A DNA stretch of 64,000 nt from contig NZ_CP041070.1 of assembly GCF_006459125.1 (NCBI RefSeq), positions 2,728,001-2,792,000 on the forward strand, given 5' to 3'. The notes beneath the pieces are model-generated. The model did no database searches, was not told the origin of the DNA, and saw nothing but the letters and a program-made list of their open reading frames with translations. This DNA is from Halarcobacter anaerophilus (GTDB lineage: Bacteria > Campylobacterota > Campylobacteria > Campylobacterales > Arcobacteraceae). Shown here piece by piece: positions 26,550 to 33,544 of this stretch. A program made the translations under genes and the position numbers. How positions within the stretch are numbered: the stretch's first letter is position 1; the number at the start of each line of letters is the position of its first letter.

Positions 26550-26570
26550 CGTCACAATTTTTGTCACAAA
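26550..26570. promoter_or_regulatory. Direct-repeat operator upstream of the 7TMR-DISM kinase gene
   Basis: Two GTCACAA copies start at 26551 and 26563, exactly 12 bases apart; on the minus strand they read TTGTGAC. The same repeat with the same period occurs in the plus orientation at 29225 and 30055. A TATAAA box at 26582-26587 follows. It is probably a binding site for the OmpR-type regulators encoded downstream. Confidence 0.65.
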
Positions 26571-26673: not shown

Positions 26674-28521
26674 ATGAAAAAAATATTAGTTTTAATCTTC
26701 TTTCTTTTTACGACTTTAACTTACGCTTCTTTTATTTCTATAGATAAAAACAGTAAAAATATCGATATCTTATCAAAATCAGAAATCTTTATAGACAAAA
26801 GCAGAGAGTTGTCCATTAACGAAGTAAAAAACAAAAAATTTACGGCAAATAATAAAAAAAATCTAGCATTTGGATACTCCCCTGATTTTAATGTTTGGAT
26901 AAAATTCACTTTATATAATAATTCAGAAGAGACCATAACCAAAATATTAGAGTATGACAATCCTCTTGCCACACATATATATTTTTATAATGAAAAAAAC
27001 GGATATAAGAAGGAAGAAGGAGGTCTGCTTTCAAAAGCAGAAAAAAAAGTTTGTATAAATCAAATTTTTACTATAAAACTTAATCCAAAAGAGAAAACTA
27101 TCTGCTATGTGAAAGCATCATCTTACATTACGGCATTGATAATAAAATTAAAACTTTGGGATATAGAGACTTTTTTTGATAAAGAGGTAAAACATCAAAT
27201 TATATTATCTCTGTTTTTTGGAGCCATGTTAATACTTGGAGTATATAATCTTTTTATCTTTTTCTTTACAAAAGATATAAGCTATTTATATTATGTCCTT
27301 TATATTTTCGGTATTCTTTTTCATCAATTAGCTTATGTAGGCTTTGCAAAACTCTATATTTTTGATACGGAAAATATGATAAGAGTTATTAAAAGTGCAT
27401 CTATTATTGTTGCGGCACCCGTTCTTGCATTAGGTCTATTTACAAAAAATTTTTTAAAAACAAAACAGTATAAAATCCATAATATTATATTAGATATATT
27501 TTTAGTTTTAATCCCTGTTTCAATTCTATTTTTTCTTTTAACTGAAAGCTTTGATAAATATAGAAACGTAATAACAATGCTATTTTTGGTATATCTAATG
27601 TATATTACTCTTTATGCTGCACTTAAAAAGAATAAACAAGCCTACTTTATACTCTTTGCCTGGACAATCTTTTTAACCACAGGAATGTTAATGTTTTTAT
27701 CAAGTGCCGGAATATTTGATATTTTTGAACATATACCTTATTTAATAGAGATCTCTTTTGTCTCAGAAGCTCTTGTATTCTCCGTTGCATTGGCAAACAG
27801 AATAAACAGTCTTCAAGAAGAGAAAGAGATTGCAAATCAAAAACTTTTAATACAACAACAAAATGAGACACAAAGATTGGCAAAAAAAGTAGATGAGAGA
27901 ACAAAAGATTTAACAAAAACATTAGAAGAAAAAAGTCTTCTCCTCAAAGAGTTAAATCATAGAGTAAAAAACAATATGCAGACAATCGTTTCATTAATAA
28001 GACTTCAAAATGATGAGATGCAAGATGATAAACTGCAAGATGTTTTAATTACAATTCAAAATAGAATTAATTCCATGAGTCATTTGCATGAACTTCTTTA
28101 CAGAGATGAAGATATTTCTCATATAAATGCTTATGAATATTTTGAAATTTTAATAGAAGAGGTGAAATATAGTTATGAAAGAGATATAGATATACATTTA
28201 AACATAAAAACAAATTTAAAAATAGAACAGGCAATTTATTGTGGATTGATTTTAAATGAATTAATCACAAATTCATTTAAATATGCTTTTCCTGACGAGA
28301 TTGGAAATATATATATAAATTTAGAAAAAAGAGGTAAAAACTATATTTTGGAAGTAAAAGATGATGGAGTCGGATATACTCAAAGTAATAGAGCTACCCA
28401 CTCTTTAGGTCTAACTCTTGTTAGAACTTTGGCAGTAGAACAATTAGAGGGTAAAATCTCAATCGACTCAAAAAATGGAGTTGATGTTGTAATAAAATGG
28501 AAAGATCATGACAAAAGCTAA
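26674..28521 (+). CDS. 7TMR-DISM sensor histidine kinase (HisKA_2 type)
   Basis: The order is: signal peptide (1-18), an extracytoplasmic beta-rich 7TMR-DISMED2-like domain (about 25-165), seven membrane helices (about 175-385), a coiled coil, a HisKA_2 dimerisation domain with LKELNHRVKNNMQTIVSL (acceptor His about 429), and an ATPase domain with LILNELITNSFKYAF and DDGVGY. Extracellular 7TMR-DISM domains are thought to bind carbohydrate or lipid-like ligands. Its stop overlaps the response regulator start by 14 bases, so the two form a pair. It is preceded by a 12-nt-period operator. Confidence 0.9.
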   Translation: MKKILVLIFFLFTTLTYASFISIDKNSKNIDILSKSEIFIDKSRELSINEVKNKKFTANNKKNLAFGYSPDFNVWIKFTLYNNSEETITKILEYDNPLATHIYFYNEKNGYKKEEGGLLSKAEKKVCINQIFTIKLNPKEKTICYVKASSYITALIIKLKLWDIETFFDKEVKHQIILSLFFGAMLILGVYNLFIFFFTKDISYLYYVLYIFGILFHQLAYVGFAKLYIFDTENMIRVIKSASIIVAAPVLALGLFTKNFLKTKQYKIHNIILDIFLVLIPVSILFFLLTESFDKYRNVITMLFLVYLMYITLYAALKKNKQAYFILFAWTIFLTTGMLMFLSSAGIFDIFEHIPYLIEISFVSEALVFSVALANRINSLQEEKEIANQKLLIQQQNETQRLAKKVDERTKDLTKTLEEKSLLLKELNHRVKNNMQTIVSLIRLQNDEMQDDKLQDVLITIQNRINSMSHLHELLYRDEDISHINAYEYFEILIEEVKYSYERDIDIHLNIKTNLKIEQAIYCGLILNELITNSFKYAFPDEIGNIYINLEKRGKNYILEVKDDGVGYTQSNRATHSLGLTLVRTLAVEQLEGKISIDSKNGVDVVIKWKDHDKS

Positions 28522-29197
28522 AATTTTAATTGTTGAAGATGAGAGTATTGTTGCTTTAGATATAAAACATGCTTTACAAACACTTGGGTTCAAAGTAACA
28601 GATTGTGTAAGAAATTACACCAGAGCAATAAAAAGCGTAAAAGAGGCAAGACCTGATATTATTTTAATGGATATAAATTTGGATAGAAGCAAAGACGGAA
28701 TCGAGACAGCCAAAGAGATCCAAAAAATAGAGAATATCCCGATAATCTATTTGACTGCATTTTCCGATGAAAAAACTATACATAGAGCTATAAAAACAAA
28801 CCCTATTAGTTATTTAATCAAACCTTTTAAACGAGATGAATTAAACTCTTCAATTCTTTTAGGTTTATATAAAATCAACAAATCAAATGAAAAAATAATA
28901 AGTTCAAAATGTGTAGAATTAGGTTTTAACTACTATTATGATTTGGAAGATGAAATACTTTTTTACGATAATGTACCTATTAAATTGAGTATAAATGAAA
29001 GAAAACTTTTAAGCCAATTAGTTAATGCCAAAGGTTCTATTATAACATTTAGAGAGCTTGAATACCTTATTTGGCCTGATTCACCGGTTTCAGACAGTGC
29101 ATTAAGAACTCTGATTTATAGGCTAAGAAGCAAATTAGAGTATAGAATTATTGAAACCGTTCCTTCCTTAGGCTGTAAACTAACCCCTCTTTTTTAA
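28508..29197 (+). CDS. OmpR-type response regulator 1
   Basis: Receiver domain residues 1-120 have the acidic pocket VEDES, phospho-acceptor Asp in LMDINLD (about residue 57), Thr in YLTAFSD and Lys in LIKPFKRDEL. The C-terminal winged helix (about 140-229) contains LSINERKLLSQLV and DSALRTLIYRLRSKLE, as in Trans_reg_C proteins that bind direct repeats. It is made together with the 7TMR-DISM kinase. A close paralogue lies at 30113, on the other side of the synthase gene, with matching domain order and nearly matching recognition helix. Confidence 0.92.
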   Translation: MTKAKILIVEDESIVALDIKHALQTLGFKVTDCVRNYTRAIKSVKEARPDIILMDINLDRSKDGIETAKEIQKIENIPIIYLTAFSDEKTIHRAIKTNPISYLIKPFKRDELNSSILLGLYKINKSNEKIISSKCVELGFNYYYDLEDEILFYDNVPIKLSINERKLLSQLVNAKGSIITFRELEYLIWPDSPVSDSALRTLIYRLRSKLEYRIIETVPSLGCKLTPLF

Positions 29198-29224: not shown

Positions 29225-29244
29225 CTGTGACGTAAACTGTGACG
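29225..29244 (+). promoter_or_regulatory. Direct-repeat operator of the acyl-synthase-like gene
   Basis: Two perfect CTGTGACG copies at 29225 and 29237, 12 bases apart, preceded by TTTT. The pair covers the expected -35 region of a promoter with TAAAGT (29254-29259) as a possible -10, the usual layout for activation by an OmpR/PhoB-family regulator. Confidence 0.7.
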
Positions 29245-29260
29245 CCGCTCTTGTAAAGTT

Positions 29261-29281: not shown

Positions 29282-30046
29282 ATGGCAAACATCAACAAAA
29301 ACATATCTTTAAACCAAATGCAGGAGCTTCTACAAAGCAGTTTTCAAAGTAGAGAAGTTTATCATCTTCCCGAAAGTTTTTATGAAGAACAAAAAAGAGC
29401 AATAGAGATCTTTAATAAAAGAATTTTTTTAGAAAGCGTAATTGATGAGACTATCTCTTTTAATAAAAAATTAAACTGGGATTATGAAAAAAGCAATCTA
29501 AAATTAACAACCACCGCCGAAGAGTTAGTAGAAGTTTTTAAATTAAGAAGTGACGTCTTTTCTGAAATAAACTATCAACATGAATTTCCTGATACTATCG
29601 AAGGTTTAAACTTTGATAAATTTGATAAAACTTCTGCTGTTATTTATTATCAACAAAACAAAGAGGTAACTGCATCAATCAGATTAATTTTTGATTCAAA
29701 AAACGGACTTCCGTCTGAGGGGAAAGCCAAATTCGATGATATGAGAAAAAAACATAAAACAATCGGAGAGATTTCAAGAAATATAGTGAAATATAGAGGA
29801 AAAGGATTAAACCAAGAATTTAAATATCTAATGTGCGGGGTATATAATGTTTTTACCAATAATGATATAGATATGGCACTTTCGGGAATAAAAAAAGAAC
29901 ACCTAAAACTTTTTAAAAAACTTGGAGGAGTAGATATATATAAAGAGATGAATGCCTACGGTTCTTTGAAAGTACCCGTATTAATAATTTCATATAACCC
30001 TCAATATGCATCAAAATTTTTTAAAAAAGTCTTTTTAAATGAATAA
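29282..30046 (+). CDS. LuxI/FeeM-like GNAT acyl-transferase (candidate autoinducer or N-acyl amino acid synthase)
   Basis: This 254-aa cytoplasmic protein has a central region (about 80-180) that shows the LuxI-type fingerprint in order: LRSDVF (Arg and Phe), FDKFDK (paired Asp), ASIRLIF (Arg-Leu) and GEISR (Glu-x-x-Arg-like). These residues shape the acyl donor and S-adenosylmethionine or amino-acid pocket in LuxI and in the related FeeM N-acyl amino acid synthases. The N-terminal 70 residues are extra. It lies between two paralogous response regulators and has the shared operator upstream. It could instead be another GNAT acyltransferase; the product is unknown. Confidence 0.6.
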   Translation: MANINKNISLNQMQELLQSSFQSREVYHLPESFYEEQKRAIEIFNKRIFLESVIDETISFNKKLNWDYEKSNLKLTTTAEELVEVFKLRSDVFSEINYQHEFPDTIEGLNFDKFDKTSAVIYYQQNKEVTASIRLIFDSKNGLPSEGKAKFDDMRKKHKTIGEISRNIVKYRGKGLNQEFKYLMCGVYNVFTNNDIDMALSGIKKEHLKLFKKLGGVDIYKEMNAYGSLKVPVLIISYNPQYASKFFKKVFLNE

Positions 30047-30054
30047 AAAATTTT

Positions 30055-30074
30055 CTGCAACGCAAATTGTGACA
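30055..30074 (+). promoter_or_regulatory. Direct-repeat operator of response regulator 2
   Basis: CTGCAACG (30055) and TTGTGACA (30067) lie 12 bases apart after TTTT, matching the operator at 29225. TATGAT at 30084-30089 is the likely -10, 9 bases downstream of the site, the same geometry as at 29225. Confidence 0.65.
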
Positions 30075-30112
30075 AGAAGATGTTATGATGAAAAAAAGGA
30101 TAAAGGTTAAGT

Positions 30113-30823
30113 ATGACAAGATCAAAGATATTAATCGTTGAAGATGAAACTATTGTTGCTCTTGATATAAAAAAGACTTTGGAGAATTTAGATTTTGAAA
30201 TAACAAATACGGTAACAAACTATAACAGCGCTCTAAACAGCGTAAGAGTCAATAAACCTGATTTAATCTTAATGGATATAAATCTGGGACAGAAATATGA
30301 TGGGATAGATACTGTAAAAAAAATTCATGCAATAGAGAAGATTCCGGTAATATATGTTACGGCATTTACCGATGAACAAACTATAAAAAGGGCGATTCAG
30401 ACAAATCCCGTAAGTTATTTGGTTAAACCTTTTAAAAGAGATGAGTTAAAGTCAAATATTCTTCTAGGTCTTTATAAAATTAGTAAAGAGAATAATGATT
30501 ATAAAAATATAATAGATGTGGATATTGGATTAGGATATTATTATAATTATAAAGAGAACAGACTTCTTTATAAAGAGATGCCTATAAAATTAAGCAACAA
30601 TGAAAACTTATTACTTAGAATTCTTATTGAAGCAAATAACAAAGTCGTAACTTTTGAGGAGTTAGAAGAGAGAATTTGGCCTAATAACGAGATATCTGAT
30701 AGTACATTAAGAACACTTGTTTACAGACTAAGAAGTAAACTTGAACACAGATTAATTGAGACTGTGCAAAAAGTAGGATGTAGACTAAATAAAGACAACC
30801 CTATGCATGCAGCAAGCAGCTAG
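30113..30823 (+). CDS. OmpR-type response regulator 2 (paralogue)
   Basis: It has 236 aa with the same receiver plus winged-helix layout as the regulator at 28508: VEDETIVALDIK, Asp in LMDINLG, YVTAFTD, LVKPFKRDELK, and DNA-binding helix DSTLRTLVYRLRSKLEH. More than half the residues look identical to regulator 1, which points to a local duplication. It has no kinase of its own beside it, so the 7TMR-DISM kinase may feed both regulators. ATG follows AAGGATAAAGG. Its own promoter carries the shared operator, suggesting auto- or cross-regulation. Confidence 0.9.
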   Translation: MTRSKILIVEDETIVALDIKKTLENLDFEITNTVTNYNSALNSVRVNKPDLILMDINLGQKYDGIDTVKKIHAIEKIPVIYVTAFTDEQTIKRAIQTNPVSYLVKPFKRDELKSNILLGLYKISKENNDYKNIIDVDIGLGYYYNYKENRLLYKEMPIKLSNNENLLLRILIEANNKVVTFEELEERIWPNNEISDSTLRTLVYRLRSKLEHRLIETVQKVGCRLNKDNPMHAASS

Positions 30824-30898: not shown

Positions 30899-33544
30899 AT
30901 GAGAAAAAAGCTGTTATATCTAATAATACTGATTTTAATCTCCACCATATTTAGTTATATCATTTTTTCTTTAATCGATAATAGAAAAAAAGAGGATTTA
31001 GAATCAGAAAAAGAGTTAATTAAAATAACATATAAAACTGTTATCAAAGCTTTTAAAATACACTCAAATTTAATCTACTTTAATAGAATCAATACTCCGC
31101 AGATAAAAAAACTCTTATTAAATATAAATGAAGCCTCTAAAGAGGAAAAAAATATTATTAAAGTTCAACTATATAATGAACTTATTGATATGTATAAAAA
31201 CATGTCTGATTTCAAATTAAGACAATTGCACTTTCACCTAAAAAACAATGAAAGCTTCTTAAGATTTCACAAACCAGAAAAATTTGGAGACAGTTTAAAA
31301 GGTGTTAGATCTACCGTTGAGTATGTAAATAGATACAAAAAAGCTATTTACGGCTTTGAAGAGGGAAAAATATTTAACGGTTACAGATTTGTTTATCCTT
31401 TAGAGTATAAAAACAAATATTTAGGCAGTGTAGAAACTTCCGTATCAATGGACTCGATAATCAAGGAGATGAAAGAAGAGTTAAACAGTAACACCGATTT
31501 TATTATAAAAAAAGAGATAGTAGAAAAAAAGGTTTTAAAAGAGGAAAAAGCAAAATATATTCAATCTGCAGTTTTAACAGATTTTTATCATGAAAAAACT
31601 GTAAGCAACGGGGGCAACCCACTTATAAAAGAGCTTTTAAAAAAATATTTGACATCAAATACAATAGAAAAAAAACTTCAAAAAGGAGAGATATTCAACT
31701 TTTTCTGCTCTAATAAAGAACAAACATATATCTTAACTTTCTTCCCCGTAAAAAATGCTATTTCCAAACAAAGTGTTGCTTATATAATATTTGCAAATAA
31801 AAACCACGATTTTAAAGAGTATGAAAATCAATATATACTTTTTTTATCTATTCTAATTCTTTTGATAATTACCCTAATGTACTTTATTTATAAAATCGAT
31901 GAAAAGAAAAACAAACTTATTAATAAAGATAAAATTCTAAAAAAAGTACAAGAGATTGGTAAATTAGGCTATTGGAAATTTGATTTAGTAAAAAATCAAC
32001 TTATATGGAGTGATGAAGTTTACAATATATTTGAATTACGAAAACATGAGTTTGAGAAAACATACGAAAATTTCTTAAAGTATGTTCATCCTCATGATTT
32101 AGAAAAAGTAACTAAAGTATATGAAGAGTCCTTAAAAAACCGAACAAACTATCAAGTTGAACATAGAATTATTACACAAACAGGCAAAATTAAATATGTA
32201 GAAGAGGAGTGTCATCACACTTTTGACGAGAAAGGGAATATCGTCCAATCTTTGGGAACAGTACATGATATTACAAATATAAAAATTTACCAAGCGCAGA
32301 TAGAGAAAGCAAAAAAGCAATTTGAATCCTTGGTTTCACATATTCCCGATATTGTATATCGTTGTGAAATTGATAAAAATTTAACAGTTCTATTTATAAA
32401 CAATGCTATAGAAACTATTACGGGTTATAAAAAAGAGGAAATACAACAAAACAAGGGAATATCTTTTAGTTCAATTATCCATCCCGAAGATATAAAAAAA
32501 TTAGACAAAGCTATAACATCACTTATAAAAAAAGATAAAGAGAGTATAGAAATAGAGCATAGAATCATTACAAAAAATAGAAAAATTATCTGGGTTGATA
32601 ACTTTTTAAAAATGCTTGAGGAGAATAAACATCAATTTATAGAAGGAATAATAAACGATATAACTATTCAAAAAGAGAACTATATAAAACTTCAAAAATT
32701 TATTGATACACAAGATAATATCGTGATATTGACAGATTCCGAAAAATTAAACTTTGCAAACAAAAAATTTTTCAGTTTTCTAGGTTATGAAAATCTAGAA
32801 AATTTTAAAAAATTCTATAGTTGTATTTGCGAACTATTTATAGAAAATGACAGATTTTTTCACCTAGGAAAAATCAAAAAAGATGAAAATTGGATTGAAG
32901 AGATACAAAAAATTCCTTCTTCACAAAGGGTTGTTGCTTTGCTTGGTCAAGATTTTAGTATACACACTTTTTCCGTAACGGTAAATAAATTTGAAAATAA
33001 TCTATTTATAGTAAGTTTTACTGATATAAGCGAAACTATGACAGAACAAATAGAGTTGGAAGAAAAAACCGTACACGACAAACTAACCTCAGCTTTCAAC
33101 AGAGAATACTTTGATCTAAACTATAAAAAATTTATAAAAGAGTATACAAAAGAAAAGACACACTTAGCAATCTCTATTTTAGATATAGACTTTTTTAAAA
33201 AAGTAAATGATAACTTCGGTCATGATATAGGAGATTATGTCTTAAAAGAGCTGGTATCTGAAATAAACAGATTTTCAAGAAAAGATGATATTCTTATTAG
33301 ATGGGGAGGAGAAGAGTTTATTTTGATACTAAAAGTTGAGTCAGAAAAAGGGTTATATAAAGCCTTGGAACATATAAGAAAAATCATAGAACTACACTAT
33401 TTTGAAAAAGTAGAAAAGATAACTTGCAGTTTCGGAGCAAGTATTTATAAAAACAATGAATCTATAGAAACTACTATAAAAAGAGCCGATAATGCACTAT
33501 ATAAAGCCAAAGAAACAGGAAGAAATAGAGTTATAATAGAGTAG
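30899..33544 (+). CDS. Membrane diguanylate cyclase with Cache-like and PAS sensor domains
   Basis: Its 881 aa comprise a membrane helix at 5-25, a periplasmic sensor domain with a KGVRSTVEYVNRY motif (about 26-310), a second helix about 314-333, two or three PAS/PAC modules (about 345-465, 470-590, 600-700), and a C-terminal GGDEF domain. The active site is RWGGEEFILIL and the inhibitory site RKDD sits just before it, so it should make c-di-GMP and be product-inhibited. The ligand is unknown. It ends 3 bases before the convergent kinase gene. Confidence 0.92.
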   Translation: MRKKLLYLIILILISTIFSYIIFSLIDNRKKEDLESEKELIKITYKTVIKAFKIHSNLIYFNRINTPQIKKLLLNINEASKEEKNIIKVQLYNELIDMYKNMSDFKLRQLHFHLKNNESFLRFHKPEKFGDSLKGVRSTVEYVNRYKKAIYGFEEGKIFNGYRFVYPLEYKNKYLGSVETSVSMDSIIKEMKEELNSNTDFIIKKEIVEKKVLKEEKAKYIQSAVLTDFYHEKTVSNGGNPLIKELLKKYLTSNTIEKKLQKGEIFNFFCSNKEQTYILTFFPVKNAISKQSVAYIIFANKNHDFKEYENQYILFLSILILLIITLMYFIYKIDEKKNKLINKDKILKKVQEIGKLGYWKFDLVKNQLIWSDEVYNIFELRKHEFEKTYENFLKYVHPHDLEKVTKVYEESLKNRTNYQVEHRIITQTGKIKYVEEECHHTFDEKGNIVQSLGTVHDITNIKIYQAQIEKAKKQFESLVSHIPDIVYRCEIDKNLTVLFINNAIETITGYKKEEIQQNKGISFSSIIHPEDIKKLDKAITSLIKKDKESIEIEHRIITKNRKIIWVDNFLKMLEENKHQFIEGIINDITIQKENYIKLQKFIDTQDNIVILTDSEKLNFANKKFFSFLGYENLENFKKFYSCICELFIENDRFFHLGKIKKDENWIEEIQKIPSSQRVVALLGQDFSIHTFSVTVNKFENNLFIVSFTDISETMTEQIELEEKTVHDKLTSAFNREYFDLNYKKFIKEYTKEKTHLAISILDIDFFKKVNDNFGHDIGDYVLKELVSEINRFSRKDDILIRWGGEEFILILKVESEKGLYKALEHIRKIIELHYFEKVEKITCSFGASIYKNNESIETTIKRADNALYKAKETGRNRVIIE

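Follow-up and report, generated by a model that had tools for sequence, protein, structure and literature searches.

A FeeM-type acyltransferase linked to a 7TMR-DISM histidine kinase, an OmpR-type regulator and a direct-repeat promoter: a putative acyl-signal circuit in Arcobacteraceae

Introduction

In several quorum-sensing systems a signal synthase is paired with a membrane histidine kinase, as in LuxM/LuxN, CqsA/CqsS and RpfF/RpfC. In the Vibrio system LuxM/LuxN (AinS/AinR), an acyl-homoserine-lactone (AHL) synthase is matched with a membrane kinase receptor that signals through the LuxU/LuxO relay. FeeM-type enzymes have come to notice chiefly through metagenomic cloning, as producers of N-acyl amino acids. 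Response regulators of the PhoB/OmpR type activate transcription from tandem direct repeats at the -35 region, and pho boxes have an 11-bp period.

Sensors of the 7TMR-DISMED2 type are known from the Gac/Rsm network of Pseudomonas, in which the orphan kinases RetS and LadS work through GacS (PMC7695008). For Gac/Rsm, a species-variable antibacterial and anti-phage regulon has been described, and quorum-sensing control of defence systems is likewise published (PMC11888443).

We analyzed a stretch of 64,000 nucleotides from Halarcobacter anaerophilus (NZ_CP041070.1, positions 2,728,001 to 2,792,000; hereafter the window), in which an earlier note had read one gene as a LuxI/FeeM-like signal synthase in a two-component locus. 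The note had also held that LuxI-type signalling is not known from Campylobacterota, and the literature that we searched, mostly open-access, contained no LuxI- or FeeM-type signalling in this phylum. Nor did it contain a system that joins 7TMR-DISM proteins with quorum sensing or an N-acyl amino acid synthase with a histidine kinase.

Results

A FeeM-family acyltransferase in a two-component locus

The kinase, RR1, synthase and RR2 genes follow one another in line (Table 1), and the RR1 gene overlaps that of the kinase. Pfam identified the paralogous OmpR-type regulators and the 7TMR-DISM kinase that the earlier note had placed around the synthase; the kinase matched PF07696 with 69.2 bits and PF07695 with 128.5 bits, and has no receiver domain. 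RR2 was found at only part of the compared loci. The claimed lack of a LuxR was borne out across the whole genome, in which no Autoind_bind domain of the LuxR type was matched, although the E. coli control was. A PAS-GGDEF diguanylate cyclase gene (30899-33544) lies directly 3' of RR2, and clustering of the compared loci gave it no counterpart.

Table 1. Features of the locus, in positions of the window
Feature	Position	Strand	Description
Reverse box	26551..26568	-	about 105 nt 5' of the kinase start; no -10 hexamer at the standard offset
7TMR-DISM histidine kinase	26674..28521	+	615 aa; Pfam 7TMR-DISMED2, 7TM, HisKA_2, HATPase_c
RR1, OmpR-type response regulator	28508..29197	+	Response_reg + Trans_reg_C; proposed activator at the TGTGAC box
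Direct-repeat box TGTGACGTAAACTGTGAC 5' of the synthase	29226..29243	+	TGTGACR-N5-TGTGAC, 12-bp period
-10 hexamer TAAAGT	29254..29259	+	10 nt past the box end
Perfect inverted repeat TTGTCCTT-AAAA-AAGGACAA	29259..29278	+	between the -10 hexamer and the start codon
FeeM-family N-acyltransferase, proposed signal synthase	29282..30046	+	254 aa, ATG start; Pfam FeeM PF21926
Diverged box TGCAACGCAAATTGTGAC 5' of RR2	30056..30073	+	TATGAT 10 nt further, 30084-30089
RR2, paralogous OmpR-type response regulator	30113..30823	+	Response_reg + Trans_reg_C

A profile search, one of the checks named beforehand in the earlier note, placed residues 84-237 of the synthase in PF21926 with 71 bits, over the curated cut-off of 27; this is the one FeeM match in the genome. 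The four motifs on which the note had relied occur in the order that it gave (LRSDVF at residues 88-93, FDKFDK at 111-116, SIRLIF at 132-137 and EISR at 163-166), and their residues are conserved beyond chance in an alignment of the window protein with 46 relatives. R89, D112, D115 and E163 are invariant in all 47 sequences, R134 and S165 are kept in 46 and R166 in 45. The partial synthase frames L073 and L079 were excluded from the alignments of the synthases; alignment A5 also left out L043, which is identical to L042, and the interrupted L062. We take R89, D112, D115, R134, E163 and R166 to be the conserved Arg, Asp, Asp, Arg, Glu and Arg of LuxI, whose spacings, in the residue numbering that we assume for LuxI, resemble those found here (23, 3, 19, 29 and 3). 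The same fingerprint is presumably present in FeeM. The position nearest the LuxI tryptophan, in a register inferred without structural alignment, is a tyrosine (Y98) in 47/47 sequences; we take it to be the counterpart of W34, the tryptophan of the SAM pocket.

At E <= 10, the aligned sequences matched FeeM (47/47), Acetyltransf_5 (41/47) and the LuxI family PF00765, Autoind_synth (13/47; best match 7e-7). The window protein matched solely the first two. The PF00765 search of the genome gave no match, and neither did its positive controls. TIGR03694, the PEP-CTERM/exosortase-associated acyltransferase family, scored 30.8 bits with the synthase, below its cut-off of 111.95.

Searches of PDB chain sequences with the synthase returned nothing significant (best E 0.35 and 0.15), and a full-length model built from seven sequences reached a pLDDT of 46 and was not used for fold search. 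A trimmed model of the catalytic domain, also of low confidence (pLDDT 54), was searched since its strand order looked GNAT-like. The structure of FeeM, the N-acyl amino acid synthase from uncultured soil bacteria (PDB 2G0B), was its best match in both Foldseek (E 7.7e-7) and VIA (Z 12.6 over 168 residues at 3.9 A). In VIA, 11 of the 13 next entries were AHL synthases (RpaI, LasI, BjaI, MesI, EsaI and what we take to be TofI) with Z of 9 to 10, whereas Foldseek ranked several other GNAT enzymes between FeeM and the first AHL synthase, EsaI (rank 16). The outcome that the earlier note had named as refuting, an unrelated GNAT enzyme as the best structural match, did not arise, on a model of low confidence.

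The window protein resembles FeeM in Pfam family, fold and fingerprint, and differs from it in its sequence (about 14% identity across the VIA fold alignment), in the roughly 80 residues that precede its FeeM domain and in its two-component linkage. With LuxI-type synthases such as EsaI, LasI and RpaI it is linked through the VIA matches and through the relatives that match PF00765, and it differs from them by lacking that match itself, perhaps by a tyrosine in place of the tryptophan, and by a genome without LuxR. The LuxI/FeeM-like reading in the earlier note is supported at the level of the superfamily; by profile, the window protein belongs to the FeeM family and is related to LuxI without being one of its members. 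That it is an acyltransferase of the FeeM/LuxI superfamily seems to us almost certain.

Conservation of the synthase with the kinase

We found a synthase match in 41 of 104 genomes of the bacterium's family, the gene being interrupted in one or two of them (G030, G086). A kinase orthologue was present in all 41 (as fragments in G043) vs 5 of the 63 others (G006, G008, G013, G014 and G031). Orthologues, partial genes included, scored at least 384 bits and paralogues at most 330, with the line set at this score gap. The co-occurrence gave a Fisher p of 9e-24, and of 7e-5 within one genus, shared ancestry being ignored in both. G021 and G057 each have two synthases and two orthologue-level kinases, both copies in G021 perhaps being an assembly duplicate, and G072 has two kinase orthologues but a single synthase.

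At 42 of 44 loci (L042 and L043 being identical) the kinase is found no further than three ORFs from the synthase, whether the two genes share a strand, diverge or converge, and in differing gene contexts; in G046 the two are about 14 kb apart. Among 354 sampled genomes outside the family, eight had a strong synthase match, and these represent two further Campylobacterales families. Kinase and regulator adjoin the synthase in seven of the eight loci; in the eighth, of Sulfurospirillum arcachonense, they lie 31 kb away and the synthase still has a box. Six plasmid records also carry the synthase, annotated as hypothetical protein (three of Aliarcobacter cryaerophilus, one of A. faecis and two of Arcobacter sp.). 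Kinase and regulator were 5' of the synthase in both plasmids inspected, and one of these synthases was split into two ORFs. No relatives of the synthase were found among viral contigs.

These data agree with the assignment of the synthase to a two-component module in the earlier note, and the presence of the kinase in every family genome with a synthase vs few of the others argues that the synthase is not a chance neighbor of two-component genes. An ordinary GNAT enzyme, acetylating a protein or small molecule and placed here by chance, is therefore very hard to credit. It would be in keeping with the membership of the synthase in the broad GNAT superfamily, the frequent Acetyltransf_5 matches, the low confidence of the models and the GNAT enzymes that Foldseek ranks before EsaI. 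Set against these are the FeeM profile score, the first place of FeeM in both fold searches with mostly AHL synthases next in VIA, and a kinase co-occurrence that holds across layouts and families.

Several observations concern other forms of the locus. In L073 (G030) and L062 (G086) the synthase is broken by stop codons, with kinase and regulator frames still open, which would fit loss of the signal-making gene in progress. On the 101-kb A. cryaerophilus plasmid pACRY43158 (L279), the neighbors of the module are dGTPase, AAA-domain and DUF2779 genes, possibly a defence island. We did not count eight weak FeeM-like matches in other families (L245-L251 and G354) as synthases; seven of the eight occur in other contexts. 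A distant FeeM-like gene of about 200 aa with 25-37% identity occurs in L245-L248, L250 and L251 (G342, G407, G450, G413, G294 and G375), in other Campylobacterales families and in another operon that has neither box nor DISM kinase. Most of these genes are followed by one of about 630-730 aa (with a TonB plug domain in G407) and then one of about 180 aa; the gene of about 650 aa next in this operon weakly resembles the diguanylate cyclase.

A direct-repeat promoter upstream of the synthase

We also examined the DNA 5' of the synthase genes, and the promoter repeats described here, with the distal sites below, are an addition to what the earlier note contained. Of the 44 synthase genes, 30 have the direct repeat on their 5' side, and for 28 of them its distance from the start codon used is 37-46 nt. 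A -10 hexamer followed at offset 10 in 23 of the 44 loci. Upstream of the other 14 synthases no box was found even by a relaxed pattern; in 8 of these 14 loci kinase and synthase are on opposite strands. Reverse boxes close to the kinase start, like that in the window, also occur in G056, G059, G080, G087 and G091.

The inverted repeat downstream of the -10 hexamer is kept as a GTC/GGAC form in 17 of the 44 synthase loci and was not seen at the distal promoters inspected. We considered a leader hairpin that hides the ribosome-binding site and dropped it: the repeat folds as RNA, but the transcript would begin inside the repeat and the predicted leaders of repeat-bearing loci do not fold. Given the position of the -10 hexamer and these non-folding leaders, an operator is preferred over a hairpin, and the repeat is possibly a second operator acting on the synthase alone.

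Genome-wide, exact boxes were found in 47 of the 104 family genomes, and the reversed pattern was absent from all of them. In a set of 93 distinct boxes, taken from loci around sites elsewhere with a few (such as L120, L121 and L232) at a module, TANNNT stood exactly at offset 10 in 89, and in at most 18 at any of 44 other offsets. For 58 of 103 boxes, an ATG-started ORF of at least 90 aa began 20-110 nt downstream in the direction of the box; the other side gave 8 of 103, and random positions 19%. We defined a composite promoter as TGTGACR-N5-TGTGAC-N10-TANNNT with at most one mismatch. A two-mismatch box search of the window's own genome gave 35 matches vs 23 for the reversed control, and such sites were not used.

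The 46 family genomes with the kinase contain 223 composite sites, the module's own included, with at least one in 42 of the 46 genomes, vs 19 sites in the 58 other family genomes (8 of 58; reversed-pattern control, 2). No box was found in G008 or G031, which have the kinase without a synthase. Outside the family, the composite promoter was present in all eight synthase-bearing genomes vs 18 of 346 others (Fisher p 3e-10), the latter near the chance rate since the reversed control matched 17 of 354. These genome counts of exact and composite boxes, within and outside the family, take in the module's own boxes and are uncorrected for shared ancestry. In G354, a genome of another family, contig C61 has three exact composite promoters next to a synthase fragment, which covers residues 2-81 at 36% identity and contains two stops.

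The sites in kinase-less genomes bear on which regulator uses the box. Thirteen of the 19 are in G051 and G054, in which neither a kinase orthologue nor a synthase was found (the G051 assembly is 86% complete); these genomes have RR1 orthologues of 306 and 275 bits with 65% and 56% identity, respectively, and a box beside the regulator gene. Because box and regulator occur together, including in these two genomes without kinase and synthase, we conclude that RR1-type regulators would act at the TGTGACR box, with binding inferred from sequence. The link between regulator, box and synthase appears to us very probable.

If the box belonged to another regulator, the module would be merely one of its targets. 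Paralogous OmpR-type regulators are common, the exact box occurs in seven family genomes without a kinase orthologue, and G017, G042, G047, G050, G083 and G095 have one composite site each and no RR1 match above 143 bits. Yet the sole kinase-less family genomes with at least three sites are the two that have an RR1 orthologue with adjoining box, and six genomes without an RR1 match above 157 bits (G001, G002, G005, G026, G036 and G064) have no box. On this check of RR1 orthologues, which covered 17 genomes, control by another regulator is improbable.

Predicted targets of the promoter

The genes downstream of the composite promoter vary between genomes. The window genome has three composite sites outside the module, exact or with one mismatch, which precede a 244-aa membrane protein, a 295-aa lipoprotein and a nucleoside hydrolase-like protein (identified by eye); no recognised defence genes were found behind these three sites. 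Targets in other genomes include Band-7 proteins, a Tle1-type phospholipase (T6SS) and LRR-Roc-COR and DUF4062 proteins (Pfam), and many of the 30 targets scanned singly with Pfam match no family. Across all genomes, a simple motif rule marks 10 of 63 targets as lipoproteins (one of them doubtful) vs 13 of 209 background genes, a weak enrichment (p 0.035), and that of membrane proteins is also weak (p 0.015).

Anti-phage genes among the targets were named with PADLOC from 20 proteins that had been picked after Pfam results or sequence reading, so that the matches give no rate. They are TIR-NLR and IetA in G055, Tmn in G021, Old in G058, PDC-S46 and viperin in one gene run of G022, and SIR2 in G087, 388 nt from its box; in G066, SIR2 begins 36 nt past the box and is followed by HerA, with a NERD-UvrD gene third in a gene run. 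Six of the 20 were unmatched (L135, L138, L148, L298, the third gene of L284 and the second gene of L288) and three matched weakly (L114, L134 and L151). With a moderate AriA match, L288 may be a PARIS pair.

At E <= 1e-8, PADLOC gave 17 families in the first genes of 63 targets (at least five proteins, inferred from family names) and 66 families in 126 background first genes, the count being of families and not of proteins. Many background matches are probably helicase or ATPase cross-matches, and one among the matches listed is a type I restriction enzyme (8e-148). Enrichment of defence genes over the background is thus neither shown nor excluded by these family counts.

Some targets share their promoter regions. 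In L119, L222, L223 and L225 (G013 and G003), near-identical promoter leaders precede unlike mature proteins, as if promoter cassettes had been exchanged, and L119 and L225 share nearly one lipoprotein signal peptide. Outside the module G087 has ten near-identical boxes, GTGACGCAAACTGTGAC (L133-L141), one of which carries a single difference. Their leaders are mostly longer, and several of these boxes precede genes of the SIR2, DUF2779, LRR-Roc-COR or NERD-like kinds. In G013 and G014 the kinase, regulator and box are kept, and a lipoprotein operon occupies the usual place of the synthase.

Discussion

We propose that the locus encodes an autoinducing acyl-signal circuit with a membrane kinase as its reader and a variable regulon for competition and defence, a reading that we hold to be reasonably probable. 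As its family suggests, the enzyme would acylate an amino acid or a similar small molecule at its amine, with acyl-ACP as the presumed donor of the fatty acyl chain. The acyl product would leave the cell and be sensed by the 7TMR-DISM/DISMED2 kinase; for this step, sensing of the synthase product by the kinase, we see about even chances. From the operon and the domains, the kinase would phosphorylate the OmpR-type regulator encoded alongside, and the regulator would bind the tandem TGTGACR repeat, which covers the -35 region with its 12-bp period. Once bound, it would activate promoters of the observed architecture, with the -10 element exactly 10 nt downstream. Such promoters would serve the synthase, giving positive feedback, and also RR2 and genome-specific lipoprotein, membrane, antagonism and anti-phage genes.

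An autoinducer circuit fits because the synthase has a feedback box, because none of the 41 family genomes has a synthase without the kinase, and because kinase-regulator pairs without a synthase exist; the last may be compared to LuxR solos. Feedback onto the synthase is typical of autoinduction. Against the circuit stand the 14 of 44 synthases without a box, the kinases without a synthase, the ties of the DISMED2 domains of LadS and RetS to calcium and carbohydrate (PMC7695008) and the distal targets of the window genome, which include no recognised defence genes.

In the main alternative, the product is an output and not a signal. The kinase would then sense cell debris, glycans, calcium or envelope damage, and the synthase, as one of its targets, would supply an N-acyl compound that serves as membrane lipid, surfactant or antimicrobial. 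The circuit would in that case be a danger-sensing system like Gac/RetS/LadS, a reading that we consider rather unlikely. The predicted targets, with a Tle1-type phospholipase, lipoproteins and anti-phage genes, are in accord with such an output, as are the kinase-regulator pairs of the five family genomes that lack a synthase. The absence of any family synthase without the kinase counts against it, as does the feedback on the synthase, given its place in autoinduction. The synthase is moreover the most recurrent box gene that we noticed (30 of 44 loci), other targets being variable. In favor of an output role, Pseudomonas DISMED2 kinases are tied to calcium or carbohydrate (PMC7695008), and Gac/Rsm coordinates antibacterial and anti-phage defence (PMC11888443).

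Returning to the autoinducing circuit, we extend it, tentatively and as something short of probable, to a density-triggered immune switch in Campylobacterota, in which a FeeM-type acyl signal, a 7TMR-DISM kinase with its regulator and one hard-wired promoter would switch on unlinked, exchangeable competition and anti-phage genes. Newly gained defence operons would enter the regulon by coming under a box promoter. The shared signal-peptide leader of L119 and L225 and the ten near-identical boxes of G087 would fit such a switch.

The closest described systems differ from this one in distinct ways. As in LuxM/LuxN (AinS/AinR), an acyl-signal synthase is genetically paired with a membrane histidine kinase; here the synthase is of another family, the sensor is of the 7TMR-DISM type, the kinase is a HisKA_2 kinase without a receiver and an OmpR-type regulator is direct. 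What the locus shares with synthase-kinase quorum sensing in general is a synthase gene conserved beside one membrane kinase gene (42/44 loci, 41/41 genomes). The promoter resembles those of PhoB/OmpR-type activation in that a direct repeat replaces the -35 element at a fixed distance from the -10 element, and is unlike them in its 12-bp period and TGTGACR half-site. Compared with RetS and LadS, this kinase has a linked cognate regulator, one promoter type and an acyl synthase, and we claim no common origin. The Gac/Rsm regulon is a measured one (PMC11888443), whereas the regulon here is predicted.

Each part of the module is of a known kind. The combination of a FeeM-type synthase, a 7TMR-DISM kinase, an OmpR-type regulator and a dedicated promoter is new as far as the literature searched goes. 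A conserved module of kinase, regulator and promoter would give a FeeM-type enzyme a natural signalling role, and the promoter has the specificity needed to predict much of a genome's regulon within this group. If the defence part is true, antibacterial and anti-phage immunity would be coordinated here by a second system, unrelated to Gac/Rsm (PMC11888443).
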